Below are positions 21,401 to 38,122 of a stretch of 64,000 bases of DNA, in pieces; positions within the stretch are counted from its first letter, which is position 1, and each line of letters opens with the position of its first letter. A program made the translations under genes and the position numbers. The DNA is from Pandoraea communis. GTDB taxonomy: Bacteria; Pseudomonadota; Gammaproteobacteria; Burkholderiales; Burkholderiaceae. The notes beneath the pieces were generated by a model. That model worked only from the letters and a program-made list of their open reading frames with translations. It was not told the DNA's origin and did no database searches. Where the stretch lies: contig NZ_CABPSJ010000001.1 of NCBI RefSeq assembly GCF_902459745.1, forward strand, positions 1,054,001-1,118,000. Direction: 5' to 3'.

Positions 21401-24359
21401 TCGTCAAACGGCCCGTGGAAGTCAGCTTGAGCACGCCGTCGGCCCGCAGACGGTTGACGGACGAGTTGACGTAGTCGCCAATCGCCGCCAGCGTCAGATT
21501 GCGTCCCGCCGTCATCTGGCCTGCGCCATTCATGACACCGCCCACGCCGACATCCCGATTCGAACGGATCACGCCGCCCGCATTGTCCAATGACGCGACC
21601 TGAAGGGCGACATCGCCCGCACTCTCCAGGGTGCCGCCCGCATTGACGACGCTTGCGCTTGTCTTCGTCGCTGCCAGCGACGTGCCGCCAAACACACGTC
21701 CACCCGTGTTGTCGATTGTGCCGCTGACGCCGAGTGTGACCTCGCCGCCGCCGATGATTTTCCCGCCGGACACGTTGCTCAGCGACGCCGCCGCTACCGC
21801 GAGTTTTCCGTTGCCACCGAGCGTCCCGCCCGCGTTGCCGATGTCGTGCGCTGCGGTGAGTGCCGTATCACCATCGCCAGCGTTCGTGATCTGGCCCGAC
21901 GCGTTGGCGATGCTGCCAGCCGTGACCGTCAGCGTATCGTGCGCGCCATTGGCACTGATGCGCCCGCCAATGTTCGTGAGCGCACCCTTGGCGTCTACAC
22001 TCACATTGCCTGCCGCTTGCAGAGAGCCTGCGGCGTTGTCGACATCGCCCTCTGCCGAGACCATGAGGCCCTTGGTGCCATAGATCTTTCCGCCATCGCG
22101 ATTGCGGAGGTATGACGCCGACGAGAGCGTCACTGTGCCGCCCGCGCTCAACTCGCCGGCCGTGTTGTCGATACGCGCTGCCGTCATGGTCAGCGCGCCG
22201 AGACTGCCAAGAATGCCCGATGCGTTCGTGAACCCGCCCCGTGCAAGGACGTTCAGCACGCCGCTGCCGAGATGGCTCACCTTGCCGCTATCGTTCACCA
22301 AATCGCCGACATCGAGCGTCAGACTGCTGGCGTTCGATGCCACGTTCCCGCCGGCATTGTCGAAGATGCCACCAACCTTGATGGTCTGCACCGCCTGGCC
22401 GTACTGCTTGATCTGCCCGGCACCGTTCGAAACGTTACCCGTGACCGTAAGCGACAACGTATCGGCATCGATCAAGCCGTTCCGATTGTCCAGACTGCCG
22501 GATTGGAGCCTGGACGTCGTCGCGGAAACTACGCCCTGCCAGTTAATCAGCGCTCCGCTCAGAGTCGCGTCGATATGCTCGCCGGAGACGGTCCCGCCAG
22601 TGTTATCCAACTGGCGGCCGGTAACGTTCAACGCCTTGCCCGCTACGATCTGCGCCGCGTTGACCAGCGAATCGGCGTGAACCTTGAGATCGCCGTTGCC
22701 GCCGATCACACCGCCAGTCTTGCCGTTTGCGGTCGTCCCGCCGGCGTTTCGAAGTTCGCCGTCGACGTCGATGGTCGCATCGTCACCTGAAAGCGAAACG
22801 ACCCGCCCTGCCGAGTTGTCCAGCGAAGCGCCCTTGATCTTCAGCACCGCGCCGGATTGCAGCAACCCGCGCCGGTTGTCGATGTCCGTGCCGCTGACAT
22901 CGAGACGGGTCGTAGCGACCGATTGCGCGTCGCGGTTGTCGATCCGTCCCAACGCCGCCAGCGTGATGGTGTCGGCACCCAGATTGCCGCTCGCATTCAG
23001 CAGATGCTGCGCGGAGCTGATCCTCAGCGCATTAGCCGCCGAGACGATGGCGCGTTGAACGTCGATATCCCCCGCTTGCGACGTGAGTGTGAGGCCGCCG
23101 CTGGCGTCGGTCCGGCTACCCGACAGATCCAGCGCGCTGCCTGTGATGCTCAGATCGCCTCGCGCGACATTGCGTCCCGTCGCCGTCACCTTGCCGGAAG
23201 CCGCGACGCTTAGATTGCCGGTGAGCGTCGCCTGGCCGTTGGCATCGATACCCGCACCTAACGTCCCATCCGACACCACGCTCACGGCCTGCACCCCAAC
23301 GTTGCCCGCAGCACTCAACAAACCACGGTTTTCGAGCGCTCCGCCGGTGCGCACGTCAGCGCTTCCGCCCGCATACACGTTGCCCGGGTTGTCGATCCCG
23401 TCGCGCGCGTTGATCGCGAGATTCCCGCTGGCCTCGGTCTTCCCGGAATTGACGAGCTTGCCCTGTGTCGTCAGCGTCAAATCGCCGGCCTGCGCGGCAA
23501 CCACCCCCTTGTTGGAAACGCCAACGCCGTTTTCCGTACCGACCAGGAAGATGCGCTGCGCGTACATGCCGCCGAGTTGGCCGACATCGATGGAAACATC
23601 CGGAGTTGCGCCGTCGCCCGCGATCTTCTGGACGGTCAGACTGTCGTGATCGACGCGATTCGCGCCCGTCACCACATTGAGCTGTTTCGCGTGCAATGCG
23701 GCGTTGACCTGCACCGCACGCGCGATGAGATCGACCTGATCGACATTGGCGGCGTTCAGCCCGTCGCCTTGAATCGTCAGACGGCCACCATTGACCTGAT
23801 ACCCCATCAGACTGCCGTCCGCCCCCATGATGGGAATGCCGGTCGTCAACACCGCGCGCGTCGTGTTGATGAATCCGCCGCCGTCAACCATGATGCCCGC
23901 GCTATTCGCAACCACGACCTGCGCCGCCTTACCTGCGACTTCGAGATACCCCCGCAGTTGGCTGGGCGAATTGCTATTGACCTGATTGAGAATGACTCGC
24001 GCCGCCTGATCGCGTGCGAGGTTCGGATTCCCGTTGACGTAACCGGCCTGTTGCGTATTCACGACGGTCGGTGAATTGTTCAGGATCACACCCTGACGCG
24101 GCACGTCGAATTGCGAATAGACGTTCTTGGACACACCTGCGGCCGTGGGCGCCGTGATATTGACCTGCTGCAATCCGTTGGCGGTTTGCACGACATTGGG
24201 GCCCTGACCTCCCGGCGCCGCCACCACCTGCGCGCGCACCGAAACAGGCGCAATGATCTGCGCGAGCACCAATGCACGAACGATGCCCCGCTGCAGCCCC
24301 ACTTCCAAAGCACTTCCCCGAAGCGCGCCCCGAGCGCGCAGATTGACGTGTTTTTTCAT
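15483..24359 (-). CDS. cdiA: CdiA/FhaB-type filamentous hemagglutinin toxin
   Basis: 2958-residue exoprotein of a two-partner secretion system, carrying a C-terminal toxin delivered to neighbouring cells on contact. In order: an extended signal peptide (about 1-43), the TPS secretion domain (about 44-330, with the NPNL motif at 111-114), long hemagglutinin/beta-helical repeat arrays, a conserved pretoxin part ending FNVDRYNRQL (about 2716), and a unique 242-residue CT. The CT is unusual: its last 130 residues are Gly-rich alternating segments (GIGGEFEIGF, GVGLGAHGWLSG, QVGAGAGFFS) rather than a nuclease-like fold. A membrane immunity gene follows 6 bp downstream. The transporter CdiB is divergent upstream. 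The pretoxin block is duplicated in the orphan copy at 12.5-14.8 kb, a route for toxin swapping. Burkholderia-type (B-A-I) systems put small extra genes between cdiA and cdiI. None is seen here. Confidence 0.9.
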   Translation of the reverse strand: MKKHVNLRARGALRGSALEVGLQRGIVRALVLAQIIAPVSVRAQVVAAPGGQGPNVVQTANGLQQVNITAPTAAGVSKNVYSQFDVPRQGVILNNSPTVVNTQQAGYVNGNPNLARDQAARVILNQVNSNSPSQLRGYLEVAGKAAQVVVANSAGIMVDGGGFINTTRAVLTTGIPIMGADGSLMGYQVNGGRLTIQGDGLNAANVDQVDLIARAVQVNAALHAKQLNVVTGANRVDHDSLTVQKIAGDGATPDVSIDVGQLGGMYAQRIFLVGTENGVGVSNKGVVAAQAGDLTLTTQGKLVNSGKTEASGNLAINARDGIDNPGNVYAGGSADVRTGGALENRGLLSAAGNVGVQAVSVVSDGTLGAGIDANGQATLTGNLSVAASGKVTATGRNVARGDLSITGSALDLSGSRTDASGGLTLTSQAGDIDVQRAIVSAANALRISSAQHLLNASGNLGADTITLAALGRIDNRDAQSVATTRLDVSGTDIDNRRGLLQSGAVLKIKGASLDNSAGRVVSLSGDDATIDVDGELRNAGGTTANGKTGGVIGGNGDLKVHADSLVNAAQIVAGKALNVTGRQLDNTGGTVSGEHIDATLSGALINWQGVVSATTSRLQSGSLDNRNGLIDADTLSLTVTGNVSNGAGQIKQYGQAVQTIKVGGIFDNAGGNVASNASSLTLDVGDLVNDSGKVSHLGSGVLNVLARGGFTNASGILGSLGALTMTAARIDNTAGELSAGGTVTLSSASYLRNRDGGKIYGTKGLMVSAEGDVDNAAGSLQAAGNVSVDAKGALTNIGGRISANGAHDTLTVTAGSIANASGQITNAGDGDTALTAAHDIGNAGGTLGGNGKLAVAAASLSNVSGGKIIGGGEVTLGVSGTIDNTGGRVFGGTSLAATKTSASVVNAGGTLESAGDVALQVASLDNAGGVIRSNRDVGVGGVMNGAGQMTAGRNLTLAAIGDYVNSSVNRLRADGVLKLTSTGRLTNTGAFNAPGTLDIHAAEIVNAAGGGFNAATTRLSADGLFSNAGSVGGDTVRIQAGSFVNTNAVLGNDVQVNATDIENNGEVAVMGGARRLALYATNAVSNYDGALMYSIGDIEIARDGTRDGAGLLANQIAVLNNRSASIIADGNLDIAARAVNNSRTSIVTRPGTPESSAKGYGLYTAGLVGGTETQAHTSLTFKEWNWGAGAAPISSMLLERLAVPITVDVPKSEVTNLNMSAQTFSLTKPLEESYQDPTTYGQGPCDDHGQCQSTTKTREVGKNPTQYYNNIVDNGSTYRITFWPDWDPNTMIRPDQAISRGDLGIDQRDYNEIARYVTTTRTRDELVSASPEAKLQAQGSIRINADGGAVNNQSSTMTAGRDLIRRAQGGTINDVGILLQETVTQTQTSTFYWHQKSGGDSEQLVVAYPVTPLPPVTLASLPAIASGNQSVQSSGRNITVSSVDPSGNTVGSAGVTGGNASGTQLGNMSGAVANRQTLGSSAQAIPGLTLPRNGLFQLKTAPGQTYLVATDPRFTNYGKFISSDYMLGQLGLDPQTTQKRIGDAFYETQLVRDQITALTGKTLLGSYTNYLDEYTALLNNGVTYAKQFGMTVGVGLSEAQMKQLTSDMVWLVSQDVTLPDGSVQSVLVPQVYLAQANTIDLTNSGAIVSGGSVKLAATDGVTNSGQIVSDTATTILGDAIVNLGVIGSGGATALSAIGDIRNMGGRIGGKDVVVQAGRDVINESTTLTQVAGTNNGGFSSSASATGVGAVGIISGTNSAAVVAGRDVTLNAGAIASDGSVIVAAGRDINLNTVKVGQSQTVGTSDGQNGGSDVVTQHVGSAISAGGNLATVSGRDTTLSGATIAAGGSASVLAGNDVTITAVKDSHSHDERSFGGSLQFTKSSFDEAVNGASVSAGNNVLIGAGQTGAVNGVLGAYQISPVAASSGSGNLTVLGSSVSSQGTGTVALAATGDVKIGSVSETHNSSKWQHDSSSGFLSKTEETSEARSHQTNAVGSTVSGDSVGIAAGRDLIVSGSTVVGTNDVALQAGRDLRIETAENVSESSSFYEKKSSGLGSSGGVGISYGKNEQRDWTNDSSVTQTGSLVGSLNGNVSMVAGNDLLVRGSDIMAGKDITGIGQNVTIESAVEREHHDETHEFKSSGFTLAVKSPVIDAIQNVTNQVSAAANSGGDARVSALRGYAAASGAVGALGEANGALGALAAGKTPEAKIELSWGSSSSRSTSSVDSTKNVSSNIKAGGAAAFIATGDAASGKGNVNIIGSNIDAKDVLLQANNQVNVLSSQDTESTRSENESKSGSFGVSYGTSGWGVSASLSKSSGDANSDSTFQNNSHINASNTAVIVSGGDTNIVGGNVNADKVIARVGGNLNIASVQDTSESSAHQESMGGGLSLSMGGASGSFSYSRGNASGNYAGVVEQSGIQAGSGGFDVNVTGNTDLKGAYIASTADASKNQLTTGTLTFSDIENHSDYSANSFGVGGGFTMGNGGANERTTGPTSGKNTGGISPMLPQSESGSERGTTRSGVSEGTITLTNGASQTQDLASLNRDTTNLNDTVSRTPDLQNLLNDQSRLMAAATAAGEAVARDIGSYANRKEEEAKEKAKNTEDPTLKAQYLQEAKDWSEGGDYRAAMHAAGGAIVAGLGGGNALGGAMGAGLTSKLGGVLNDLSNKIQDAHPTGNADIDQALAQIVATGVGTAVGAAAGGASGAFTGFNVDRYNRQLSPDERKWAKDSAKAFADFYKKKTGDAISTVDAENLLLAGGYRMVDAAAAKAPGADRVAAEFISINSGRLFTATDLERRDTNLNGNANGTLTPEQRALNTSHVPNVQSPSWAASVGVYYGIGGEFEIGFTGLSPTEVKLGFGVGLGAHGWLSGAGQGANADFISYGTSANAGDYRIGSSLSGSAVFGPVAGQVGAGAGFFSNVQGKPITGQYWQAKGGVALSPTVGLGVEAKVNIIEFSYKRK

Positions 24360-24691
24360 CTGATCTTTGTATGACTATTTTTATGAGGGTCTTCGCCCAA
24401 TCTTTTACTTCTATCGATACAAACTTCGCATACCGAATAGTACTAAGAATTTCAGTATTCGTTCGCATTGCGAATCTATCTTCCTAAGATTGTTCAATAC
24501 CGGTAATATCCGGAAAAAAGTAAACAATCCGAATCAACATCGCCGGGGATCATGATGGATTTCGACGCCTGATTTAAGGTCGTCCAGCACAGGACGCGCA
24601 CATCCCGCCATTGACATCGCGCATCGGCCCGAGCTTTCGCGCCGGGAGAGCGTTCGTCTTGTCTCCGCGAGCCCCTTTCAATCGTTGCCTA
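24360..24691. promoter_or_regulatory. Divergent cdiA/cdiB intergenic region
   Basis: About 330 bp, AT-rich (far below the flanking GC), separating the divergent cdiA and cdiB genes. It must hold both promoters. No perfect consensus was found. ACCGGT-containing short palindromic sequence occurs at about 24500. A plus-strand frame starting with TTG at 24611 is continuous with cdiB but has no ribosome-binding site. Confidence 0.4.
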
Positions 24692-26470
24692 ATGAATCCC
24701 GTATCGAGTTGCGCTGCCACGAACATTCGCCATCTGCTTACTGTCATGGTTCTGGCATTGCCCTCGTTGCCATTTCAGGCGACGGCGCAGACACCTCCTC
24801 CTGCGCCTGCGGTCGACGCCGCAGTGTCGAGTGCACGGCAACAGCAACTCCTTGAGCAACAGCGCCAGGCTCAGGAACGTGCATCAGCAATCAGTGCGCC
24901 AGCAGTTCGCTCAGCGTTGCCCTCATCCGACGGATTTCCCACGCTTCCCGCGGAAACGCCTTGCTTTCGGATTGAGAAATTCTCACTGGATGTACCGGCA
25001 ACACTTCCGAAACGCGCGCAGTCTGCTGGGGCGTCGGCCCTTCCGATGGACCCGTTTGCCTTTGCGGCATCCTGGCTTGCCCACTATCACGGCCAATGCC
25101 TCGGACGCCAGGGCATTGCCGCGATCACAGCCGGTCTGACCCGGGAGATTTTGGCGCGGGGTTACGTGACAACCCGTGTGCTCGTGCCCGAACAGGACCT
25201 CACCACGGGCGAACTGAAGCTCACCCTGATCCCCGGCATCGTTCGGGATATTCGTTTCGCCGATGCATCGCAATTCGGCACATGGCGCACTGCATTTCCG
25301 ACAGCAGCGGGCGAGATTCTGGAATTGCGCGATCTGGAACAGGGATTGGAGCAAATGAAGCGGGTGGCGAGTCAGGACGTCACCATGCAGATCGTGCCGG
25401 CGGAAGCACCGGGAGAGAGTGACGTCGTCATTGAAGTCAATCGGGCGAAGCGATGGAGCGTGGTGACATCCATCGACAACTCAGGCTCTCGCGACACGGG
25501 GAAGTTGCAGGGTAGCCTCGCGCTCGGGATTGACAATCCATTAGGGCTAAACGACATCCTGAGCGTTGGCGCAACGCATGATTTGGCGTTTGCCGACAAA
25601 CGGTTCGGCTCGAACGGATGGAATGCCTTCTATTCGATTCCGTGGGGATACTGGACCGCCACACTGTCGGCTTATGCCAACCGGTACAACCAGCAGATCG
25701 CCGGGGTAAACGACACCTTCGTGACTCACGGGCAATCCCAGAACGTCGATCTCAAACTTTCCCGCGTTCTCCAGCGTAGTCAAAGCAATGTGCTGAGCGC
25801 TCAGGTCCGGCTGAGCAAACGTTTCGGGCGGAGCTTCCTCGAGGATGCCGAGATCGATCAGCAGTACCGCAACAACACGTTCATCGAGTTCGGATTCGTG
25901 GATCGGCACTATATCGGCGCCGGACAGTTCGACGGTAGCCTCATGTATCGGCAAAGCGTCGCCGGATTGGGCGCCGCGCCGGACAATGCCGTGCCCGGCA
26001 CGCCCACGTACCGCTTCAAGATGGCCGTTTTCGATGCCAACCTCTCGCTGCCGCTTGGCCAGTTGCCGCTGCGCTATGTCACGACGTTCCACGGGCAATT
26101 CACCAACGACGTTCTGCACTACATCGACGACTTGAGTATCGGTAGCCGCTACACAGTGCGAGGTTTTGATGGCGAGTCGTCCCTAGCGGCCGAGAAGGGC
26201 TTCTATTGGCGCAACGAACTTCAGTGGATATTGGGTGCCTCCGGCATCTCACTGTTCGCTGGCGTCGATTATGGGCGCGTGAGTGGTCCGAATGCCGCCT
26301 ATCTCGCCGGCACGCAACTCGCCGGGGCTGTCATTGGGGTGCGGGGTAATGCCAAGCTGCCGTTTGGTTTCGTTGCTGGAGAAGTCTTTGCCGGGACTCC
26401 GGTCTACAAACCGACAAGTTTTCAAACCGCACATACAACGGTGGGATTCTCGCTCACGGCGCAGTTCTGA
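24692..26470 (+). CDS. cdiB: CdiB/ShlB-type two-partner secretion transporter
   Basis: Outer-membrane TpsB transporter of the Omp85 superfamily, which secretes CdiA through its 16-strand barrel. 592 residues. A signal peptide ends near FQATAQ (about 32). A long Gln/Ala-rich linker follows, then POTRA modules (FRIEKFSLD, LTTGELKLTLIPGIVRDIRF). The C-terminal barrel carries the VRGF lid-lock motif (YTVRGFDGES) and ends with an aromatic residue (TAQF). ATG 24692 gives a normal signal peptide. The TTG at 24611 is an unlikely alternative. It is divergent from cdiA, whereas many loci place cdiB upstream of cdiA in one operon, so the two genes may be separately regulated. Confidence 0.9.
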   Translation: MNPVSSCAATNIRHLLTVMVLALPSLPFQATAQTPPPAPAVDAAVSSARQQQLLEQQRQAQERASAISAPAVRSALPSSDGFPTLPAETPCFRIEKFSLDVPATLPKRAQSAGASALPMDPFAFAASWLAHYHGQCLGRQGIAAITAGLTREILARGYVTTRVLVPEQDLTTGELKLTLIPGIVRDIRFADASQFGTWRTAFPTAAGEILELRDLEQGLEQMKRVASQDVTMQIVPAEAPGESDVVIEVNRAKRWSVVTSIDNSGSRDTGKLQGSLALGIDNPLGLNDILSVGATHDLAFADKRFGSNGWNAFYSIPWGYWTATLSAYANRYNQQIAGVNDTFVTHGQSQNVDLKLSRVLQRSQSNVLSAQVRLSKRFGRSFLEDAEIDQQYRNNTFIEFGFVDRHYIGAGQFDGSLMYRQSVAGLGAAPDNAVPGTPTYRFKMAVFDANLSLPLGQLPLRYVTTFHGQFTNDVLHYIDDLSIGSRYTVRGFDGESSLAAEKGFYWRNELQWILGASGISLFAGVDYGRVSGPNAAYLAGTQLAGAVIGVRGNAKLPFGFVAGEVFAGTPVYKPTSFQTAHTTVGFSLTAQF

Positions 26471-26952: not shown

Positions 26953-29616
26953 TCAGTAGTCTTCAAAAGGTCTCTCATCTCGTTTGAATGGGAATGGGTC
27001 TAAGAGAACGGGGAGCTGCGTGTCCACTCTCGGCTCGCGGAGGTAGCTCCGCCAAGTCTCGTTGACATGCCGAAGATCGATCTCCGAACTGACATCGGAT
27101 TGGCGACAAGCATCCATCCGCTCCTCGACACCGTGCTTGAGCGTGATGAACGAAGCGAGCTGTTCCTCGTCAAACGAGCGCCCAAGATAAGGATAATGAA
27201 TGGTCAACTCGGCCCTTCCGTCGCGCTCCAGGTGTGCATTTACCTTACCGAAAAGCCGGTCGACACGGCCCACGCGCTGCTCGTTGTCGCCGGGAGTCCA
27301 CGCAATTCCATAGTGATGGACCTTTCTGCACTGCAGATGTAGGTTAACTCCCTCCTGGAGCACGGACGTAGTAGCTAGTACGTTAGGATAGAAGGGACTG
27401 TTAAAACCCAGAATCAGTCGCTGCCGGTCTTTGACAGCACCACTTGCATAAAACGCGGGACTGTTCAACCCGGTTAGTACGTGCCAGTCGCGCCTCCAAT
27501 CGGCGATGTCTTCACAGAGCGCTTCGAAGGTTTCCAATGCGGCGCGGAAGTAGGCAAGCACGAGCGACCCGGTCAACCTCGGTTCGATGAAACCAACGAA
27601 CGACAGATAGCGCTGCTGCACATCACCGGTCAGTTTCAATCTTCGGAATTCCGCATACCAACAGTACAATTCGATGATAACTGGACTGGCAAACAGGAAC
27701 CCGTTCTTCAGGTAATTGCCGAAGTTCTCGGCAATATCAGAGTCATGCGCGAGCCACGAATCGATCCTTTCGCGATCCATCTGCGCGAGAAGGTCATACA
27801 TCGCCCCCCACAAGGTGGGCAAGGGCTTTGCGAAGTAGAACTTTTCGCCCGATACGCGAGTTATTCTTTCCCTTGCAATCTCATGACGGGCGTCACGTGC
27901 CGCGGCCCCATACTCGTCCCTGCCCCGCTCTCCAGGTAACTTTCGATGATAGTAGTACATTCCCTTTCGATAATCACTGGCGGGTTCAAGCAGAAGCGAA
28001 AACAGACTCTCAGGCTTGCGCAGGCGCAGGCTGAAATTTGAGCAGTCGGTACTACGATGAGCGCCAGCTTTCTTCACCACGAATAGGTCAGCGATCCTCG
28101 AATGGACGTCGGCATCCGAATCGTTGTGCCTCTGAGGCATCTCGTCGTCGAGGCCAAGCAGCGATTCCTCGTCCGCCCCCGCTTCCTTTGGGACACTCCT
28201 AAAGAATCGAATGAAGGATTCGCGTGACCAATGGTCGGCCTCCCATCGCTTTGCCACCACCGGATCATTCGGGGCCAGCGCATTGGCGATCATCATTCCG
28301 TACTGAAAATCGTAGGCCGAATTAATCCGCTTGGCGATTTCGCGAACCGATGGGATTCGACGAACGAATACTAAGTGCTTATGCTCATGAACATCGAGTC
28401 TCGCGTCGAAAACGTCACGAGGCACACACTGACTCACGAGAGCGTCATACTTTGGATGAGCCGGCAGTTTCTCCAAGCTCCTGTGCATCTGCGCAAGTTG
28501 TTTGAGAATGTCAGTATCACGTGCTCCCCTAAAGTCTCGACCACTTTGGTCAACGTCTAGGCCTGGTTCATCGTGTTGGGAATTCACCTCGAAGGACTCG
28601 AAACCTTCTAGGTAGCCGTACAGATAGCGCTTGCCCTCGGTGACTTGCTGCTTAACCAGTAACTTCTGATACAGCGCGAAGAACACTTCGGCCGAGGGAT
28701 CCTGATCAAAATCGGCTTCGATGGCCACTTCGTTGCGGTAACTGTACTTGTCGTAGGTGCCGTTCCTGCCATTCATGCGACGCAATCGGCGTAGCGCGTA
28801 CTTCTTCAGCAGCTCCTCGGGCGTATTGATTCCCACGTCTGTCACGTAGCTGAGTATCGAAGTGATGTTGTCCATCGACGAGTGACTTGGCGTAGCCGTC
28901 ATCAGCAGTGCCCTGCGGCTCAGCCTGTCTCCGTGAGTGCCGAAGAACTCACGTGCCGCCTTGGCTCGCTGGGACTGTCCCTCCTTGTTGCGAAAATAGT
29001 GAGCTTCATCCACGACCAACAGATCGAAACCCCGTTCTCCAAGCGCCCGCATCAACCTGCGATGAATATTCTTTGCGGCGTCCGCAGCGCCTGTAAGCTT
29101 GTCGAAGGACTCGTCATCTTCGCCGCGAACCAGCGTGCTGAGTGAGTAGATCGTGGTGATGAACAGCCTGCCGGATCCTGATTCCACGACCTCGGTCAGT
29201 TCGTCAAGTCGCCAGCACAACTGAGGCTCCTGGACGGGCCCTCCATCTACCATTCGGCCCACTACGTCGTCGGACTCGCGGTAGTGGCTCTTGACGAACT
29301 TCCTGAACTCCCGCTCCCAATGCTTGCAGATGTCCCGGTTGGGCGCCATTACCAGCACCTTGGCATCGGGCCTCTTCTTCCACAGTAGTGACATAACGCC
29401 GAGCGCCTGAAGTGTCTTCCCCGTACCCACTTCGTCGGCCAGCAAGGCCGCGTCGCGCAGTCCAAGCTTGTTCCAGAGTCCAGCAACGCCCTCAGCTTGG
29501 CGTGCAGACATCGACTCATCGCTTTCGCTGTAGACCCAATCGGTCCGATCGCGATCGAACGTGATCCAACGAGAGACTTGCTCCGGCGTCAGGGCGCCCC
29601 AGTCGTCAGCGCTCAT
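26953..29616 (-). CDS. SNF2-type DEAD/DEAH helicase, defence-like
   Basis: 887-residue superfamily 2 ATPase. Walker A is at 61-69 (DEVGTGKTL), the DEAH box at 203-206 (VVDEAHYFRN), motif III at 240-243 (TATP) and motif VI at 780-784 (QRVGRVDR), with ATTSVLQEGVNLHLQ (motif V) before it. DEVGxGKT and EGVNL are typical of SNF2/RapA-like translocases. The two helicase halves are separated by a large insertion of about 400 residues. The start overlaps the stop of the PLD gene by 11 bp, with an AGGGAGG ribosome-binding site. It ends a four-gene operon with PLD nuclease, an unknown protein and a PD-(D/E)XK protein. It probably moves on DNA for the nucleases. This is inference. Confidence 0.85.
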   Translation of the reverse strand: MSADDWGALTPEQVSRWITFDRDRTDWVYSESDESMSARQAEGVAGLWNKLGLRDAALLADEVGTGKTLQALGVMSLLWKKRPDAKVLVMAPNRDICKHWEREFRKFVKSHYRESDDVVGRMVDGGPVQEPQLCWRLDELTEVVESGSGRLFITTIYSLSTLVRGEDDESFDKLTGAADAAKNIHRRLMRALGERGFDLLVVDEAHYFRNKEGQSQRAKAAREFFGTHGDRLSRRALLMTATPSHSSMDNITSILSYVTDVGINTPEELLKKYALRRLRRMNGRNGTYDKYSYRNEVAIEADFDQDPSAEVFFALYQKLLVKQQVTEGKRYLYGYLEGFESFEVNSQHDEPGLDVDQSGRDFRGARDTDILKQLAQMHRSLEKLPAHPKYDALVSQCVPRDVFDARLDVHEHKHLVFVRRIPSVREIAKRINSAYDFQYGMMIANALAPNDPVVAKRWEADHWSRESFIRFFRSVPKEAGADEESLLGLDDEMPQRHNDSDADVHSRIADLFVVKKAGAHRSTDCSNFSLRLRKPESLFSLLLEPASDYRKGMYYYHRKLPGERGRDEYGAAARDARHEIARERITRVSGEKFYFAKPLPTLWGAMYDLLAQMDRERIDSWLAHDSDIAENFGNYLKNGFLFASPVIIELYCWYAEFRRLKLTGDVQQRYLSFVGFIEPRLTGSLVLAYFRAALETFEALCEDIADWRRDWHVLTGLNSPAFYASGAVKDRQRLILGFNSPFYPNVLATTSVLQEGVNLHLQCRKVHHYGIAWTPGDNEQRVGRVDRLFGKVNAHLERDGRAELTIHYPYLGRSFDEEQLASFITLKHGVEERMDACRQSDVSSEIDLRHVNETWRSYLREPRVDTQLPVLLDPFPFKRDERPFEDY

Positions 29617-31525
29617 AGTCGCAAACCTCCCTAAGCTGCTTCATGTATTGGGCGTTGCCACTGATTTCCGGCGGCAAGGATACCCGTTGCTTATTCAGTC
29701 TCAGGCTGTTCCACTTGCCTTTGTTTGGTGGCGTAGTGGGCGCGTATCGGGCCCGATTCTGCTCATAGACGTCCAACGCTACCGCGTGAAGAGAATTTAC
29801 TTCCTGCAATAGGAACCAGTTGAATACCGTATTTCCACTGGTGACAATTTGCTCATTCACTTTAACGACCAGCTCTTGCAGGCTTCCCGCGTAAACGAAC
29901 AGAAGTTTTTCGAGTTCGCTCATGGATCCCGCCGCCTGCAGTCGTTTCCGGAATTGCTCGAAGGCATGGAACAGTCGAAAGTAACTGAGGTTTCCGCCAT
30001 TCGCGCTGATGATCGGGCTTCCAAGCTCTTCCTCCGGCACGCCGTTATGTCTGAGCACCTTGCGCAGTTGCGCTGTCCCAATACCCTTCGGGTCGACGTC
30101 GTTCACCAGATCGTTCAGCAGATCCTTCAACGAGTCATAGCCTTGGGCTCTGCGATAGTCCTGCCCGGTCTCCACAATTAGGCCACGGAATTCGACACTC
30201 CCGCTCCTGACGACTTCATAGCAATGGTTCGCGAGCAACGCTTCGTCGTCGGTGACGTCCAGTTCGATTGGCTGTAACAAATACGCGCCATCGCTCCGAC
30301 GCGCCCTCCAGCGAAGCGTGACGGGCTTGACGACGCCTGGGAGGCGCAGGACGTAAGGTCTGCCGCTAATCGGCTCGAATAGTTTGCCATCTACGCAATA
30401 GCGGCTTTGTTCCCAGTCGAATCGAACCTGCAGATCGAAGGGTAGGGGATAAGGGGGGGCTATGAGCTCCTCCTCCAGTGACTCCTCCCTGCAAAAATCT
30501 TTCGTGGTCAAGGCCAACTGCCTGCCGCTAATAGTTGTCGCAGGCGATACATTCAGCAGAATTCCGGCTTCGACGTTTCTCCGTTCGAAACTCGAAATTC
30601 CCGGCTCTGTGCAATTCCATGAACCTACAGCGAGACGGCCCCTGTCTCCAGACACCAGCCAGAGTTTTGCATGCGTCATTTCAATCTCGGCCGCACGCGG
30701 TAGCGGATAGTCATGAAAGGACAGAACACCCGCCCGTTGCAACTTTTCGAGTTCTGCGGTCCAAATGGTTCGGAGTTGCCGATTGGCGATTCGATCGGGT
30801 ACGATGGAAACCCTCAGTTCACGCCCCATCGTCTCTTGAATCCGGTTGATCAAACTGGCGAGATCGCGCGAGAAATACGGCGACCATACCGTCAGCCTAT
30901 TGGCGCCGGTCTCTGCCATCAATTGCTGAAGGAAAGTCTTTTTCTGAAAGCTGTGAGCGAATCTCCAGTCGTCGTCTTCGCCATTAAATTTCCGGCGCAC
31001 GCCCAATCGCTGAGCTTCAGTCAGACCGAGTAACTCCGTGAGCGGATCGAAGAAGCGTTTGATTTGTTGGTATTGCTCGTTATTACTGACGGCACGAAAC
31101 GCAAACACCTCCTGGTTCCGTCCCCAGCCACTGACTGTCAAGTTGGCGCTGCCTGCGCCCAGCACCATCGAGCCGGACTTACCCTCTAGGAAAATTACCT
31201 TCGGGTGAAACAGGGAGTCCTTGTCAAATCCGTTTTCCGCAAGGTGGCCGGGCAGGACACCATGGACAGGGATCGCTGTGCGCTTAAGTTGGTCCGCTTC
31301 CATCATTCGCAAGTCGCAGAACAGGCGCAGGTCAATTTCGCGCTCGGCCACCTCCTGTTGCATGGTCTCGTAATCCATCCGGTTTGCAGGCTGGTCGAAA
31401 CCAAGTAGTACAGGCAGCACATGAGTCTCAAAGAAGGGGATACCGAGATTGAATGTCGTAAACCAAGCACGCTTCAACTCGCCCAGCCCTTCTACCTGCT
31501 TGCGAAACGCATCCAGAAGTTTCAT
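29606..31525 (-). CDS. Phospholipase D-like (HKD) nuclease
   Basis: 639-residue protein from ATG 31525 (MKLLDAFRKQ). Two HKD-type half-sites are visible: HPK at 107-109 with GSANLT at 125-130, and HAK at 285-287 with GSWNC at 301-305. Each supplies a histidine to a shared active site that cleaves phosphodiesters. In bacterial defence operons such PLD proteins act as DNA nucleases. The C-terminal 330 residues are a separate domain of unknown fold. The start overlaps the stop of the preceding gene as ATGA, and its own stop overlaps the helicase start by 11 bp, so the three genes are translationally coupled. An open frame to 31588 gives an extra 21 residues that look unlike coding sequence. Confidence 0.8.
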   Translation of the reverse strand: MKLLDAFRKQVEGLGELKRAWFTTFNLGIPFFETHVLPVLLGFDQPANRMDYETMQQEVAEREIDLRLFCDLRMMEADQLKRTAIPVHGVLPGHLAENGFDKDSLFHPKVIFLEGKSGSMVLGAGSANLTVSGWGRNQEVFAFRAVSNNEQYQQIKRFFDPLTELLGLTEAQRLGVRRKFNGEDDDWRFAHSFQKKTFLQQLMAETGANRLTVWSPYFSRDLASLINRIQETMGRELRVSIVPDRIANRQLRTIWTAELEKLQRAGVLSFHDYPLPRAAEIEMTHAKLWLVSGDRGRLAVGSWNCTEPGISSFERRNVEAGILLNVSPATTISGRQLALTTKDFCREESLEEELIAPPYPLPFDLQVRFDWEQSRYCVDGKLFEPISGRPYVLRLPGVVKPVTLRWRARRSDGAYLLQPIELDVTDDEALLANHCYEVVRSGSVEFRGLIVETGQDYRRAQGYDSLKDLLNDLVNDVDPKGIGTAQLRKVLRHNGVPEEELGSPIISANGGNLSYFRLFHAFEQFRKRLQAAGSMSELEKLLFVYAGSLQELVVKVNEQIVTSGNTVFNWFLLQEVNSLHAVALDVYEQNRARYAPTTPPNKGKWNSLRLNKQRVSLPPEISGNAQYMKQLREVCDYER

Positions 31526-32931
31526 GCATTTCCCCGAAAACCAGACAAAAAATGACGAAATTGAGGGACATAGTAGTGGTTGACCCAAGTCTCGACCCTC
31601 CGGTCTTCCTTCTCAGGCAATTCACGGGTACGGACGTCGATTTTCAACTGCTCGTCGTTAAGCAAGCGCAGCCAAGGCGACTGGCCTCGGTCCTCCATGA
31701 TCTTGGAGTGGTACCTCAACAGTCGCTCGCTCTGTTGCCGAATTTCGGTTTCGTTGGAGAGATCAAGCAGGTCTTTTAGACGCTCGGCAGCAGTGCCGAC
31801 AACTTGTTCACGCATATTCGAATGGGTCACGATACGCCCCGCGAGCTTGGGGAGCGTGTCCCTGTCGCGGCCGAGAGCCTTCCACTTGGCCACGACCTCA
31901 TTCAACGACTGAGACTTGGCGGAGAGCATGACGTTAAGCAACAAATCAAGTTCTCCCAGAAGCGGCTCCAGCAAGCACACATGCTCAAGCTTCTCTTTGT
32001 CCGAGGCCACTCGGAAGTTCCGTTCGACCGATCGCGCAAAAACCTCGGCAGCAGACCACGGAGCCGCGCCGCGCCGCTGCGATTCTTCGTTCAGCACTTG
32101 GTACAACGCGCCAGGGGCTCCCTGATCAAGCTCCGTGACCGACAGCCAAAAGTCGCGAGCATATGCACCTACTGCCCAGGGTGAACTGAATGCGTTGACG
32201 AACGCCTTCCTGAGTTCAGAAGGTATCTGAGCGAACCAACGCTCGGGTTCGCGACTGGGTTCTGCAAGGATGTCCGCTAGATGGGCACGCACGAGCTTGT
32301 GCAACTTGGTCAAGTGCCCCGCACCCGTCGTGAGTCGATTCGCGACTGTCTGCCACAAAGATCGAGCCGATGGCAGCGCATAGTCATAGCCGCTATCGAA
32401 GAATCCCATTTCTACTAGCGGTGTCTTGTAGCGGCCGCTGACACCGAGCAAGTTCTGCCGGACGAGTATATGAGCCTTGGACTCATGGCTAAAGACCAGT
32501 CGAGGGTTACCCTCGCTCTCGTCCCACTTGCGACGGGCCTTGGAAATACCAAGAACGCCGCCAGTCTCCACGCCTGCCAATTCCTGCGCGTCCATGATGC
32601 AATATACGAACAGATTCTCTAGGTAGAGCAGACACGCTTGCTTAAAGGCCTGCGCATTCTTTCCTTTGCCTGCGTAGGCCTTTTCTCCGTGCAGGCCCTT
32701 GCCTAGCTGAACCGAGTCGTCGTCGACGATGCTCCTGATCACCCAATGATTGAACAAATTGAGTGTGTAGTTGCGAACATCGTTAGAGATGGAGCTGATG
32801 CGATTGCGAAATATCCTCTGGCCGTAGGCAGACCAAATAACTTGCACGCCAAGCGGGTCGAGGTTTAGTTCGCTACTGATGCGATCATCGAACTCCGTGA
32901 GGATGTCTCGCAGCAAGTCCGGCGGAGCCAT
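31522..32931 (-). CDS. Protein of unknown function in SNF2/PLD cassette
   Basis: 469 residues, no recognised family. It is mostly alpha-helical and charged, without signal peptide, membrane segments or a nucleotide-binding motif. Features that can be seen: a C-terminal cluster of Arg/Glu helices (about 380-440) and a conserved-looking aromatic tail WVNHYYVPQFRHFLSGF. It lies second in the operon, 64 bp after the PD-(D/E)XK protein and in ATGA overlap with the PLD gene. It is probably a structural or specificity subunit of the complex. This is inferred from context only. Confidence 0.7.
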   Translation of the reverse strand: MAPPDLLRDILTEFDDRISSELNLDPLGVQVIWSAYGQRIFRNRISSISNDVRNYTLNLFNHWVIRSIVDDDSVQLGKGLHGEKAYAGKGKNAQAFKQACLLYLENLFVYCIMDAQELAGVETGGVLGISKARRKWDESEGNPRLVFSHESKAHILVRQNLLGVSGRYKTPLVEMGFFDSGYDYALPSARSLWQTVANRLTTGAGHLTKLHKLVRAHLADILAEPSREPERWFAQIPSELRKAFVNAFSSPWAVGAYARDFWLSVTELDQGAPGALYQVLNEESQRRGAAPWSAAEVFARSVERNFRVASDKEKLEHVCLLEPLLGELDLLLNVMLSAKSQSLNEVVAKWKALGRDRDTLPKLAGRIVTHSNMREQVVGTAAERLKDLLDLSNETEIRQQSERLLRYHSKIMEDRGQSPWLRLLNDEQLKIDVRTRELPEKEDRRVETWVNHYYVPQFRHFLSGFRGNA

Positions 32932-32995
32932 ATCGATAGTGCCTTTCCAATTTGAATTTTAATCAAAATGACTCGATCAATCTCAAGCGACGAAG

Positions 32996-33928
32996 TTACA
33001 TGCCCCAGTCGCGGACATTGGTCTCGCCGGTCTGGTAAAACTTTCTAACCAGCTTGATGTATTCCACAAAGTCCCGATTCTCTTCCGCGAGCCGATTACA
33101 CGTGTCCCAATCGACGTTTGGTCGCTCTCTCGCAGGAATTAGCACCTGGCTTGCGGAAACATCTGTCACATCTAACTGAATGACACCGATTCCGTGTGCA
33201 GTCGCCAAAAGCCGCAACTCCTTCATGATGTCAGGCCCTTCAATTTCGGCTGCAACCAAGTAACTAAAGTTTGCCCAAGAGGCGTTGGAGACGGTTTGGA
33301 AGAAGCTCCGGCGAACATTTGACCTGTTGAGCAGCAGCTTTACCTCGAACGCCCAGAGCTTCGTTCTGGTATCCGCATGTTCTCGCACGCAGGCTCGAAT
33401 CTCGGGAGCCCATTCGGTGGAGAGATCCTCCATTCCAACCACATCCGGATGCAACCATTCATTGGCGCCCGACCCAACTCGGTTACTAGATCGCTTCTCA
33501 TCGATCCGCATGGAATGTACGTTGTGCTCGGTCCAGAGATACTCTGAGAGAAGGGGATACAGCGAATGCTCGGTCCGCTTTGCCCCCTGCACCGGGCTAA
33601 CCGCCCCCTCCGCTTCGGCGACCTCCGTTTCGTCGTCTTTGGTCGACCAGAAGAAGCGGCGAGGCCGCCCCTCCGTGGTCTTCAACGAAGGATCTTGCCG
33701 TTGCCAGCTGCGCTGCGATCCATAGATCTCTGCGCGAAGCTGCGTCAGAAGCTGATCGTCAGTCTCCATCACGGTGCTGTTCGCAAGCTTTAAGGCGCAC
33801 TCCTCAGGGTAGTTCGCCATGATCCATCGGCCAATCTCTGACGCCGTCAGCTTTTCACCATGAGCGGATTGCAGGCACTCCAAAACACGCTTTCGCAACT
33901 CGAGCTTCAAAATTCCCCCGTCGGTCAT
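32996..33928 (-). CDS. COG2958-like protein: HTH plus PD-(D/E)XK nuclease-like domain
   Basis: 310 residues from ATG 33928. A longer frame begins with GTG at 34042, overlapping the preceding gene, but its N-terminal 38 residues look like non-family sequence. An N-terminal HARE/HTH-type helical domain (about 5-55) is followed by a linker and a C-terminal nuclease-like core. The core has a WLHPDVVG motif (PD at 161-162) and WAFEVKLLLN (E195-x-K197), the PD-(D/E)XK pattern seen in COG2958 proteins found in defence loci. It is first of the four co-directional genes, so it may mark DNA recognition or cleavage. The metal-ligand assignment is by eye. Confidence 0.7.
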   Translation of the reverse strand: MTDGGILKLELRKRVLECLQSAHGEKLTASEIGRWIMANYPEECALKLANSTVMETDDQLLTQLRAEIYGSQRSWQRQDPSLKTTEGRPRRFFWSTKDDETEVAEAEGAVSPVQGAKRTEHSLYPLLSEYLWTEHNVHSMRIDEKRSSNRVGSGANEWLHPDVVGMEDLSTEWAPEIRACVREHADTRTKLWAFEVKLLLNRSNVRRSFFQTVSNASWANFSYLVAAEIEGPDIMKELRLLATAHGIGVIQLDVTDVSASQVLIPARERPNVDWDTCNRLAEENRDFVEYIKLVRKFYQTGETNVRDWGM

Positions 33929-34041: not shown

Positions 34042-34587
34042 CTACAACTCGACGACCACGCCGGGATCGAACTGCGGATTAAGGTGTCGCGGCGAGTACC
34101 CGCGCGGATTACAAATGACGCGCGTCCCACGTACGGCGGCATCATCCTTCGGAGACTCGACGTAATCGAAGCTCGTATGCATATGCCCGTGAATCCATAG
34201 ATCGACGGCAGGACCCATCAGATCAGATAGATTCGAAGCGTATGCTGGTGTCAGCGAGTCTCCATCGTACTCAGGATCAACCGACTGAATCGATGGTGCG
34301 TGGTGGCTAATGACGACAGTCTTGCCGTCGAACGGTTCGGCTAGTTTATTGCGCAGCCATGCGCGCGAGACCTCATGGCGACGGACAGTGTCTATTGGAT
34401 AGAGCTTTCGAAACGAGGAGGTCGCTCGAATCAGGCGGAAGTCGCTCATCGAACTTTGAGCGTCTCGCATGCTTACCCCGGGAGACACTTCGCCTTCGTA
34501 CAGCTTGAAATCGGTCCACAGCGTGCAACCGATCAACATCGTGCAGACGCAGATGATGAACGTTGAGTACACGGACAACAGCCACAA
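34042..34587 (-). pseudogene. Metallophosphoesterase fragment (N-terminus lost)
   Basis: The minus strand decodes the C-terminal part of a calcineurin-like phosphoesterase. ISHHAPS supplies metal-binding histidines and WIHGHMHTSFDY the GHxH motif, followed by VICNPRGY and a terminal DPGVVVEL. The N-terminal metal ligands (GDxH, GN motifs) are missing. The first 35 codons of the open frame read as non-homologous sequence, so the gene has been cut upstream and is a remnant. It lies between the SNF2/PLD cassette and the broken integrase, which suggests loss at an insertion event. The stop (TAG) abuts a GTG of the next gene. Confidence 0.75.
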
Positions 34588-34830
34588 CGATATCCGATAT
34601 CACAAAGTCACGGCGATTGAGACTCGGGCACGTGAATACCGCCATATCTACGACATGTTCATGAGCGAAGAGACGCGCAGACGTCTGAACTTGCACTAGG
34701 CCATTCGCAGACCATTCGTAACGAGTGCGCACGTTGGCACGTAACGTTGAAGAGGATGAGCGGCCCCAAAGTGGCTTTGGTGCGATAGAGTCGTCAAATC
34801 CAATCGCGTTTGATAACGGAGGATTCTTCG
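34588..34830. other. Junction between phosphoesterase and integrase remnants
   Basis: About 240 bp with no supported gene. A plus-strand frame (34469-34699, ending RREYRHIYD-like RETRRRLNLH) overlaps the phosphoesterase antisense. It could be a phage or integrase-related scrap, but it has no start signal. GGAGG lies at about 34819, just before the integrase remnant frame. Confidence 0.35.
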
Positions 34831-35256
34831 ATGGTTGACCCGCCCGAAGGGATGAAGCCTTTTCAGGCTGCGCTGCTGCGTGGCGAGATTCAAGTGAAGC
34901 CGGGGGCGGTGCACCCCGACTCGCAAGACGCAAAGTGCAATCCAGCCGAAGACGACGAAAGCGACGCCAACCGTGTGTTCGAGTTTCGCAGCGACGCGGT
35001 TACCAGAGCCTTCGAACGCGCAGTGGCACGCGCCCGCACGCTTTACGTCGATGAGTGCCGTGCGGCCAAACTTAAGCCAGATGGCAAGTTTCTGACCGAC
35101 CTTCGCTTTCACGACTTACGGCACGAGGCGACTTCCCGCTTGGCGTCAATTTTCCCCATGCACTAACTGACAAAGATAACGGGCCACAAAGACCCACGTA
35201 TGTTGATGCGTTACTACCATCCGCGAGCCGAGGATCTAGCAAAGAAACTGCCCTAA
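34831..35256 (+). pseudogene. Tyrosine recombinase (integrase) C-terminal remnant with stop
   Basis: The frame beginning ATG 34831 (GGAGG 8 bp upstream) has about 50 residues of unknown origin (MVDPPEGMKPFQAALLRGE). It then becomes the catalytic domain of a tyrosine recombinase. FRSDAVTRAFERAVARARTLY, DLRFHDLRHEATSRLA (catalytic Arg and HxxR) and FPMH are visible. The next codon is TAA, followed in the same frame by LTKITGHKDPRMLMRYYHPRAEDLAKKLP, with the conserved His and nucleophilic Tyr, up to TAA 35254-35256. A GAA to TAA change explains the stop. It is an inactivated integrase fused to a foreign start, evidence of an earlier mobile element. Confidence 0.82.
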
Positions 35257-35279: not shown

Positions 35280-36521
35280 TCATGCCCCCAGATGCCCTCT
35301 CTTGGTGTTCACCTTGCCATCAAGGGCATCGGGAAAACCGTCAGTCGTTCCGCTTGGCTGCACGGCGGGCGCTTGGTGCTTACCGAAAATCCGATCTAGT
35401 GTCGCTGGTATCAGGGCGGTATTGGACTGACGGATGGCGGCGTGCTTGACCTTGAGAGCGCCGATACTCCCTTTCAGGTCGCGCAATTTTGTCTGCACCG
35501 GCATGGGAGGTACAGACATTTCATATTCGAGGAAAACCGAAGGTTGCAGACGGCGGCGGCGAATATTTGTGCCGCCGCTCAGAGCTGCAAGCTGCGGCCA
35601 GACCGACGGCGTGCGGAAATAAATGTCTAACACTTCAGGAAGGACTGCTTTGGTATTCACGGTGAAAACGGGAAATTCCGGCGAAACAACCATGCCATCG
35701 CACTCCGGTGGAACAACGCCGAGCGCGCCTTCCCAAGCCATCAATTTCGGATAGGTGAAATCGCCAGCCTTAACAGTACTCAATCGCTCGTAGGCGAAAT
35801 CGCTGCCACTTTTCACCGCGCTGGTGAATACGCCGCGCCCGAAGGAATATACACCAGCGAAGCGGTATTCCCGTGTGTTGTCCACGGCCACATCGGTCGA
35901 CCGCAACGACACCAACTCTGACATCTTCCGTTTTTCATAGCAATCCGCTTGTTCGCCAAACATGTAAGAGCGAATCAGCGCATCGGCATCTGCTTCTACC
36001 GCGTCCAGATGCGCGTTGAGTTGGGTCGTCTTGTTGCTCAACTCGCCCAGCTTGGCGACGATAGCGCGTTGTTCTGGCAGCGGTGGGAGTGGAATTTCGA
36101 TTGCAAGGAATTCACCGGGCTTGATGCGATTCTTTCCGCTAGTACCTTGCGCCTTCTCGTCACACGCTCGCCAAAAACCACGCCACTTGGTGATCAGTCG
36201 CATCCACGCAGGCAAAATCCTCTCGCCATCGAGCGTATACGTTGGAAATTCCGTGCTGACGTAGCCGCCACAAAGTTCCGTCGTGGCAACTGCCACGCTG
36301 CCGTTCCGCGCCCAAATCTTGTTGACTATGAGGTCATCAGACTCGATCCGGTTGAAGTTGGAGTACTTCGTGTTCGCACCATCAATGCTTTCGCGTTCGT
36401 AAGCACCTTCACCCCACAACCGAACACCAATTTGTCGATAAATAGTTCCAGCCTGCGGCGCTTCAAACCGCAGCGCAGGCTGGCAAACATCCCCAAGCGG
36501 AACCAAAGGCCAGTCGCTCAT
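35280..36521 (-). CDS. hsdS: Type I restriction-modification specificity subunit HsdS
   Basis: 413 residues with two target-recognition regions separated by conserved segments. The N-terminal WPLVPLGDVC and the central PLPPLPEQRAIVAKL motif are typical of HsdS, with a coiled spacer following (about 155-200, ELSNKTTQLNAHLDAVEADAD). A second TRD follows. The last portion is somewhat shorter than usual and ends with an unusual NTKRGHLGA. The start overlaps hsdM by 4 bp (ATGA). It decides the DNA sequence recognised by the HsdR-HsdM complex and is the fastest-evolving member. Confidence 0.88.
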   Translation of the reverse strand: MSDWPLVPLGDVCQPALRFEAPQAGTIYRQIGVRLWGEGAYERESIDGANTKYSNFNRIESDDLIVNKIWARNGSVAVATTELCGGYVSTEFPTYTLDGERILPAWMRLITKWRGFWRACDEKAQGTSGKNRIKPGEFLAIEIPLPPLPEQRAIVAKLGELSNKTTQLNAHLDAVEADADALIRSYMFGEQADCYEKRKMSELVSLRSTDVAVDNTREYRFAGVYSFGRGVFTSAVKSGSDFAYERLSTVKAGDFTYPKLMAWEGALGVVPPECDGMVVSPEFPVFTVNTKAVLPEVLDIYFRTPSVWPQLAALSGGTNIRRRRLQPSVFLEYEMSVPPMPVQTKLRDLKGSIGALKVKHAAIRQSNTALIPATLDRIFGKHQAPAVQPSGTTDGFPDALDGKVNTKRGHLGA

Positions 36522-38110
36522 GCTGTCACCTTGCCGACCAGCGTTTCGATTTCACCCAGCAGGCGCAACACCTCGACCTCGTGCTCACGCATCCGCGCCA
36601 CCAGCTCCTCAGGCGCAATGTGCTCCAACTCCTGCTTGATATTCGGATTTTTCACATCGAGGTTGTAGCCGCGTGCAGCAACGTTGCTTGCGCTGACCTT
36701 CCACGCCTGCTGTGTTTCCTTTCGGTCGGCCCACCACGCTAGGCATTCAGCGAACTCCTCGAACTGCATGGGCGCAGTCTTGGAGTATTTCTTGCGGCCT
36801 TCCGGCAGCGGGATTTCGTAATACCAAATGTCCTGCGTCGGCTCGCCGCGCTGGAAGAACAGCAGGTTGGCCGGAATATCGGTGTATGGCGCGAACACGC
36901 CCTGCGGTAGCCGCACAACGGTGTGCAGGTTGAAATCCTTGAGCAATTGCTCCTTGATGACCGCCGCCACGCCATCGGCGAACAGGGTGCCATTGGGCAC
37001 CACCACCGCCGCCCGACCGCCATGCTCGGCGCGGTGCGCCTTTATGTGTCCAAGCTTCGGCACCATCACATCCTTGAAGCGCAGCTTGCGCATGATGTAT
37101 TGCAGGAACAGCAGCGCGGTTTCGCTGGTTTGCATGTTCGGCGGGAAGTTCGCCTTGATGCCCGCCTCTTCCTCACCGCCGAACGGCGGGTTGGTCAGGA
37201 TCACGTCCACGCGCTCATTGTGGCCGATGTCGTTGAGCTTGATGTCCAGAGTGTTGCCGTACCCGATTTGCGGCGTTTCCAGCCCGTGCAGCAGCAGGTT
37301 CATTTCAGCCAGCATGTACGGCAGCGGCTTGGCTTCCTTGCCGTACAGCGTGTCGTTCTGCAACATCGCGCGCAGCTTCAGGTCCTTGCCGACCTGCGTG
37401 CGCAGATGTTCGTAGGCTTCAACCAGAAAGCCGCCCGTGCCGCACGCCGGGTCGAGCACAGCTTCGCCCAAGCGCGGATCGGTCACTTGCACCATGAAAC
37501 GCACAACCGGACGCGGCGTGTAGAACTCGCCGGAATCGCCTGCCGCGTCGCGCATCTCGCGCAACATGGATTCGTACAGGTGCGAGAGGGTGTGGATTTC
37601 CTCGCTGGAGGTGAAGTGGATGGCGTTGATTTTGTTGAATACGTCACGCAGCAGGTAGCCACTGACCATGCGGTTCTGCACGCCCTTGAACACGTTAGCG
37701 ATGACCCGGCGCTGGCCGTTGCGGTCGTCGCGGTCGCCCTGCCCGCGCAGATAGGCGAACAAGCCTCGCCCTCGCTTGCCATCCGGGCGCACGGCTTCGT
37801 CGTTGCTCAGGAACGCGAGCAGTTCATCTCCATTGATGCCATCGGGCTTGGCCGCCCAATCGCGCCAGCGATATGGCGCTTCGATGAGCGGTTCGTAGTC
37901 TTCGCCATCGAGCGCGGCGGCGTCTTCGCGTGCTTGCTCAAGGTCATCCAGGAACTTCAGGAACATCACCCACGTCAGCAGAGGCAGACGGTCGGCATCG
38001 CCGTTCAGGCCCTTGTCCTTGCGCAAAATCTGACGCACGGACTTGATGAGGGCGGAAAGCTGTTGCGCTGTGGTTTGCGCAGGTTTTTCGGTTTTTGCTT
38101 TACGAGCCAT
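36518..38110 (-). CDS. hsdM: Type I restriction-modification methyltransferase HsdM
   Basis: 530-residue adenine-N6 methyltransferase subunit. The N-terminal helical domain (about 10-170) is followed by the SAM-binding motif DPACGTGGF (220-228) and catalytic NPPF (307-310), with EFYTPRPVV (195-203) typical of HsdM. Together with HsdS it methylates the host recognition site, and it is also part of the restriction complex. It lies 12 bp after hsdR and overlaps hsdS by 4 bp. The length and motifs indicate an intact gene. Confidence 0.93.
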   Translation of the reverse strand: MARKAKTEKPAQTTAQQLSALIKSVRQILRKDKGLNGDADRLPLLTWVMFLKFLDDLEQAREDAAALDGEDYEPLIEAPYRWRDWAAKPDGINGDELLAFLSNDEAVRPDGKRGRGLFAYLRGQGDRDDRNGQRRVIANVFKGVQNRMVSGYLLRDVFNKINAIHFTSSEEIHTLSHLYESMLREMRDAAGDSGEFYTPRPVVRFMVQVTDPRLGEAVLDPACGTGGFLVEAYEHLRTQVGKDLKLRAMLQNDTLYGKEAKPLPYMLAEMNLLLHGLETPQIGYGNTLDIKLNDIGHNERVDVILTNPPFGGEEEAGIKANFPPNMQTSETALLFLQYIMRKLRFKDVMVPKLGHIKAHRAEHGGRAAVVVPNGTLFADGVAAVIKEQLLKDFNLHTVVRLPQGVFAPYTDIPANLLFFQRGEPTQDIWYYEIPLPEGRKKYSKTAPMQFEEFAECLAWWADRKETQQAWKVSASNVAARGYNLDVKNPNIKQELEHIAPEELVARMREHEVEVLRLLGEIETLVGKVTA

Positions 38111-38122
38111 AATTTCTTTCGT

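Follow-up and report, generated by a model that had tools for sequence, protein, structure and literature searches.

Which genes of a putative defence locus in Pandoraea communis belong together, and what would they do as a unit? The locus lies in the window, a stretch of 64,000 nucleotides from contig NZ_CABPSJ010000001.1 whose own numbering is used throughout. A preliminary description, made from the sequence, had read positions 26953-33928 as a four-gene cassette with the parts of a DNA-targeting defence system. All four open reading frames (ORFs) lie there on the minus strand, but the unit consists of three of them, which we call A, B and C. On balance we favour the reading that A-B-C is a translationally coupled three-gene defence unit built like the Azaca system, probably an ATP-dependent DNA-degrading complex.

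A three-gene unit that recurs elsewhere

Gene A (31522-32931, minus strand; 469 residues) is the first gene of the operon and encodes a protein predicted to be all-helical, with no known domain. It is followed on the same strand by gene B (29606-31525; 639 residues from its ATG), encoding a member of the phospholipase D (PLD) superfamily that is probably a nuclease, and by gene C (26953-29616; 887 residues), encoding a SNF2-like helicase of superfamily 2 (SF2). In the sequence, the stop codon of A overlaps the start codon of B by 4 bp (ATGA, 31522-31525, minus strand), and the end of B overlaps the start of C by 11 bp (29606-29616, minus strand). The overlaps are those given in the preliminary description, but they hold for three genes. 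The fourth, an HrgA-like gene whose stop codon lies 64 bp upstream of A, overlaps no gene.

The preliminary description had proposed a search of the four proteins against the hidden Markov models of PADLOC. In this search, A was matched by PDC-M27A (PDLC04552; E 4.9e-188), B by PDC-M27B (E 2.7e-248) and C by PDC-M27C (PDLC04556; E 0), whereas the HrgA-like protein had no match. The matches are nearly full-length, the genes are adjacent and overlapping, and we found no difference from PDC-M27 (M27 below). The proposed nuclease-helicase defence cassette is thus supported to the extent that its core proteins all fall into one candidate system, but the suggestion that it might be new fails, because the PADLOC catalogue already includes that system. 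The window locus belongs to a candidate family that is rare but already catalogued, and is not of a new kind. A passage of one paper (PMC11811056) attributes the PDC-x systems to Payne et al. 2021 and calls them unpublished candidates, and the name PDC-M27 was absent from a full-text search of open-licence papers in PubMed Central. M27 is a catalogued but, as far as we found, unstudied defence candidate.

For comparison we used 27 M27 loci besides the window, of which 25 are genome-contig loci from a profile scan and two are plasmid records (fetched out of three matched). By tblastn, A, B and C follow one another in the same order on one strand in 22 of the 27. This count includes a Zoogloea locus (L026, 6578-8885) in which A is in two pieces about 0.9 kb apart and B and C are matched over nearly their full length. 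Four further contigs (L011, L018, L019 and L027) end before C, and L027 looks decayed. With start codons picked by script, A and B overlap in all 24 relatives with an intact junction (by 4 bp in 18 and by more in six), and B and C overlap by 1-14 bp in all 22 relatives that have both genes. Conservation of both overlaps in these sequences suggests that the three proteins are made in matched dosage.

Searches of larger collections show how rare the unit is and how closely its genes travel together. The A profile found two of 398 genomes of the phylum, and the B model found ten, with full-length matches in the same two genomes and short matches in the other eight; among 72,556 plasmid records, A and B match an identical set of three. 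The linkage of A and B is therefore beyond chance. Within the class, M27A occurs in one of 369 genomes, namely the window's own. The nearest relative is a locus of Paraburkholderia aspalathi (L010), whose DNA aligns with the window from 32933 to 26957 with 78.5% identity over 6005 columns. This homology stops within 4 bp of the start of A (32931) and the stop of C (26953), and so excludes the fourth gene.

The proteins and what they might do together

Protein C matches the Pfam families ResIII, SNF2-rel_dom, DEAD and Helicase_C above cut-off. Its helicase motifs I, II and VI are intact and include a DEAH motif as well as DEVGTGKT (K67, T68), which the preliminary description had also picked out. 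K67, T68, D203, E204, H206, R781, R784 and R787 are invariant in all 22 sequences of an alignment of the window with 21 other loci (L025, which also carries C, was left out). Protein B matches Pfam PLDc_2 and carries two HxK...N...E half-sites, H107/K109/N128/E139 and H285/K287/N304/E319, in a single-chain pseudo-dimer; these contain the HPK and HAK motifs named earlier (H107 and K109, H285 and K287). The half-site residues are invariant in 23 of 23 sequences. The predicted structure of B shows a PLD fold, and a Foldseek search with it returned, among other PLD-fold proteins, the NgoAVII R protein (E 3.8e-4) and SauUSI (E 1.9e-3). B is a PLD-superfamily enzyme and probably a nuclease. Protein A has no match in Pfam, NCBIfam or PHROG. 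Its AlphaFold2 model (mean predicted local distance difference test score 85.1) gave no match in the PDB fold search at E <= 0.001 and no relative in any fold search run. It carries a nearly invariant but flexible loop, GRYKTPL.

Profile comparison connects B and C to Azaca, which consists of ZacA, ZacB and ZacC. We compared 45 pairs among ten profiles or single sequences with hhalign. B aligned with ZacB over its PLD half (282 columns, probability 94.6%, E 6.7e-8). In a shuffling test of this pair the dynamic programming score was 131.5, and none of 25 shuffles exceeded 106.2; the PADLOC ZacB model gave B only 44 bits. C aligned with ZacC in two segments of the helicase core (98.5% and 98.2%). 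The other pairs scored 49.8 and 20.0% (helicase to HsdR) and at most 2.0% (the remainder). Outside its own family, the best PADLOC match of C was ZacC at 85.7 bits (among the matches listed, the best 25 of 51), and a single ZacC protein scanned in turn had PDC-M27C as its best match (67.7 bits). As judged by these alignments, B is homologous to ZacB and C to ZacC.

In the reading that we favour, C would engage DNA and translocate along it as a SNF2-like motor, and B, with two half-sites per chain, would cut the DNA, probably without a metal ion. A, helical and with its flexible loop, may serve as adaptor or sensor, either keeping motor and nuclease in one complex or licensing the cut. The target would be phage or plasmid DNA. 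Because the unit has no methylase, the cell's own DNA would be spared not by a modification of the unit's own making but by DNA state (ends, replication intermediates or damage) or by tight gating of B.

Without a modification gene, the unit is less likely to tell self from non-self by sequence, and this also favours a second reading, which we regard as possible but unlikely. Here A-B-C would be a Hachiman-like sensor of damage or replication that kills the infected cell: C would patrol DNA and restrain B, and abnormal DNA would free B, so that phage and host DNA are both degraded. The division of labour is the same, a helicase and a nuclease without a methylase. According to PMC12278908, HamB of Hachiman keeps HamA in check and switches it on at damaged DNA, and all cellular DNA is degraded. 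However, HamA is given there as a DUF1837 protein, whereas B is of the PLD type, so that the likeness is one of analogy only.

We think it improbable that A-B-C is instead a DNA repair or processing unit in which, for example, a Tdp1-like B removes protein-DNA adducts. Tdp1 does appear in the structure comparison of B, but tied with other PLD enzymes. The rare and patchy distribution described above (one genome in the class set and two in the phylum set), carriage of M27 on plasmids and the homology of B and C to ZacB and ZacC also argue against a repair role.

Several observations weigh against the defence complex that we favour. In one locus (L028) A is truncated and neither B nor C is found, despite about 8 kb of DNA beyond. 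In the structure comparison of the B model, Tdp1 lies within 1 Z unit of PLD proteins that are not nucleases, phosphatidylserine synthase among them, and Foldseek ranks polyphosphate kinase above NgoAVII; with matches so mixed, the fold alone is no proof of a nuclease. The B-ZacB probability was only 47% with a smaller profile of five ZacB sequences. C scores 113 bits with PHROG 62 and 74 bits with the NCBIfam DrmD model, versus 86 bits with ZacC. It is within PADLOC that ZacC appears as the closest helicase family to C, and because C resembles these other families too, homology does not establish C and ZacC as sisters. The role given to A is a guess, because A has no recognizable domain. Finally, the surroundings of M27 loci, counted without a random-gene control, speak for the favoured reading in that they fit a mobile, defence-rich setting. 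Among 91 flanking proteins of 150-1300 residues (up to four upstream and three downstream per locus), the best 25 of 86 Pfam families include resolvase, RepB, type I S subunit and WYL, three each, and phage integrase, N6 methylase and NACHT, two each; among the best 25 of 243 PADLOC families, those of type I restriction-modification (R-M) systems occur in three.

The HrgA-like gene and the surrounding genes

The fourth gene (32996-33928, minus strand) encodes 310 residues from an ATG at 33928. A GTG at 34042 would extend it to 348 residues and make this ATG residue 39. Of its plasmid matches, the twelve with coverage of 80% or more begin at residues 30-53 of the longer reading, two of them (at 30 and 34) slightly ahead of the ATG, and the ATG is likely the true start. 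The protein contains D162 and E195-V-K197 in a D...ExK motif, as the preliminary description had noted for E195 and K197; its PD-(D/E)XK-like motif and helix-turn-helix-like N-terminal region were both judged by eye. It has no PADLOC, Pfam, NCBIfam or PHROG match. By tblastn it is 39-43% identical, over 82-90% of the query, to a plasmid 'HrgA protein' in nine records (H5, H6 and H8-H14), and 11 of the 27 plasmid records that it matched bear the HrgA label, which we take to be COG2958. The name HrgA-like follows from this match to annotated HrgA.

We give very little credence to a four-gene restriction-like system in which the HrgA-like protein would recognize DNA or make the first cut. Its gene does lie close upstream of A on the same strand, and the protein bears the D...ExK motif. 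Co-occurrence in other genomes, on which the preliminary description had staked its four-gene set, nevertheless extends to A-B-C and stops there: hrgA is found in none of the 27 other M27 loci (tblastn, E <= 1e-4), although the sequence upstream of A is 1.3 kb or longer in 26 of them, and the DNA homology to the closest M27 locus starts at A. We also viewed four plasmid neighbourhoods of hrgA. Two are type I R-M loci, with hrgA between hsdS and hsdR in a Vibrio rotiferianus plasmid and directly before hsdR in a Shewanella plasmid, where two other genes follow hsdS. In Alteromonas and Megaera it lies away from annotated R-M genes, so there is no universal R-M tie, a point in favour of the four-gene system. 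In the window, the gene adjoins M27 and an integrase remnant rather than sitting inside an hsd operon. We prefer to see it as a neighbour independent of M27, perhaps a displaced R-M accessory.

The preliminary description was right about the type I R-M system and the integrase debris nearby. PADLOC and Pfam scans of the window place hsdRMS at 35280-40780, and between hsdS and hrgA lies a site-specific integrase fragment (34810-35166, plus strand) with 71% identity over 63 residues to an annotated Paraburkholderia plasmid integrase and no Pfam match at E <= 0.01. Abutting hrgA is the C-terminal piece of a calcineurin-like phosphoesterase (34042-34587, minus strand; Metallophos 19.5 bits, under the 21.5 cut-off), probably a remnant. 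Beyond the hsd genes, a 188-residue ORF (40777-41343, minus strand) without PADLOC or Pfam match overlaps the start of hsdR, called from GTG, by 4 bp. On the other side, the cassette adjoins a two-partner secretion (TPS) pair, a 2958-residue exoprotein with TPS and haemagglutinin repeat domains (15483-24359, minus strand) and its ShlB/FhaC-type transporter (24611-26470, plus strand).

In two other M27 loci, a DUF2779 protein is encoded upstream of A: in Rhodoferax antarcticus (L002, 7352-11966), where its gene stands between those of an ATP-binding protein and a WYL regulator, and in Zoogloea (L026, 4923-6413). It is possibly a linked system in the Rhodoferax/Zoogloea lineage.

Comparison with known defence systems

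M27 resembles DISARM at the superfamily level, in its SNF2 helicase and PLD proteins, but no DrmA, DrmB or methylase was seen inside the three-gene unit. Scores of 74.3 of 610 bits for DrmD and 35 of 133 bits for DrmC are far under the curated cut-offs, in keeping with the earlier view that this is not DISARM. NgoAVII and SauUSI are PLD restriction enzymes that combine a PLD nuclease with an SF2 motor. Their PLD folds match the B model over only about 150 alignment columns, their motor is fused or differently partnered, unlike in M27, and we know of no equivalent of A in them. The preliminary description had also mentioned Gao_RL as a possible counterpart and had set Mokosh apart. Among the PADLOC matches listed, none was to a Gao_RL-named model (best 25 of 51 for C, all seven for B and both for A) and none to Mokosh (best 25 of 51 families for C).

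The closest comparison is with Azaca, sampled as five genome loci found with the ZacC model and nine plasmid loci; the ZacA and ZacB models were run on two of the five (L035 and L036). In the eight loci with gene tables, a DUF6361 gene is followed by a PLD gene (six loci) or one for a hypothetical protein (two loci) and then by the helicase. As in M27, the order is unknown protein, PLD protein and helicase, with broadly similar sizes, and given the B-ZacB and C-ZacC matches, two of the three parts are homologous and collinear. Beyond its PLD half B is unaligned, as is C between its helicase segments. Azaca requires a ZacA (DUF6361) protein as well as the ZacB-type PLD protein, which the window has. 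With HMMER filters on, DUF6361 was detected neither in the window's A at E up to 1 nor in three members of the A family at E up to 5. The A-ZacA profile-profile P of 0.035 was reached by 24 of 100 block shuffles, and a second test gave 17 of 80 and 7 of 60. A has no detectable similarity to ZacA, and by sequence the two may be either too diverged for it to be seen or different. In two rhizobial plasmids (L051, 842-6897; L052, 916-6983), genes for a PD-(D/E)XK nuclease and a UvrD-like helicase stand directly before the DUF6361-PLD-helicase genes.

A more tentative idea, which we put forward as a doubtful extension, is that one motor-nuclease pair is common to M27 and Azaca, whereas their first subunits are unrelated. 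The first gene would in that case encode an exchangeable sensor or adaptor directing a shared ATP-driven PLD nuclease to new targets, and M27 would rank as a second type within an Azaca-like superfamily. A, with no known domain and no relative in fold searches, could be a new sensor, and its GRYKTPL loop might become ordered upon binding a partner or ligand. A 2023 survey (PMC10482375) counts Azaca among the systems whose mechanism is unknown, and work on either system could explain both. Taken together, our analysis reduces the unit of four genes to one of three, names residues with which its mechanism can be tested and, through two proteins out of three, links an unpublished candidate with Azaca.

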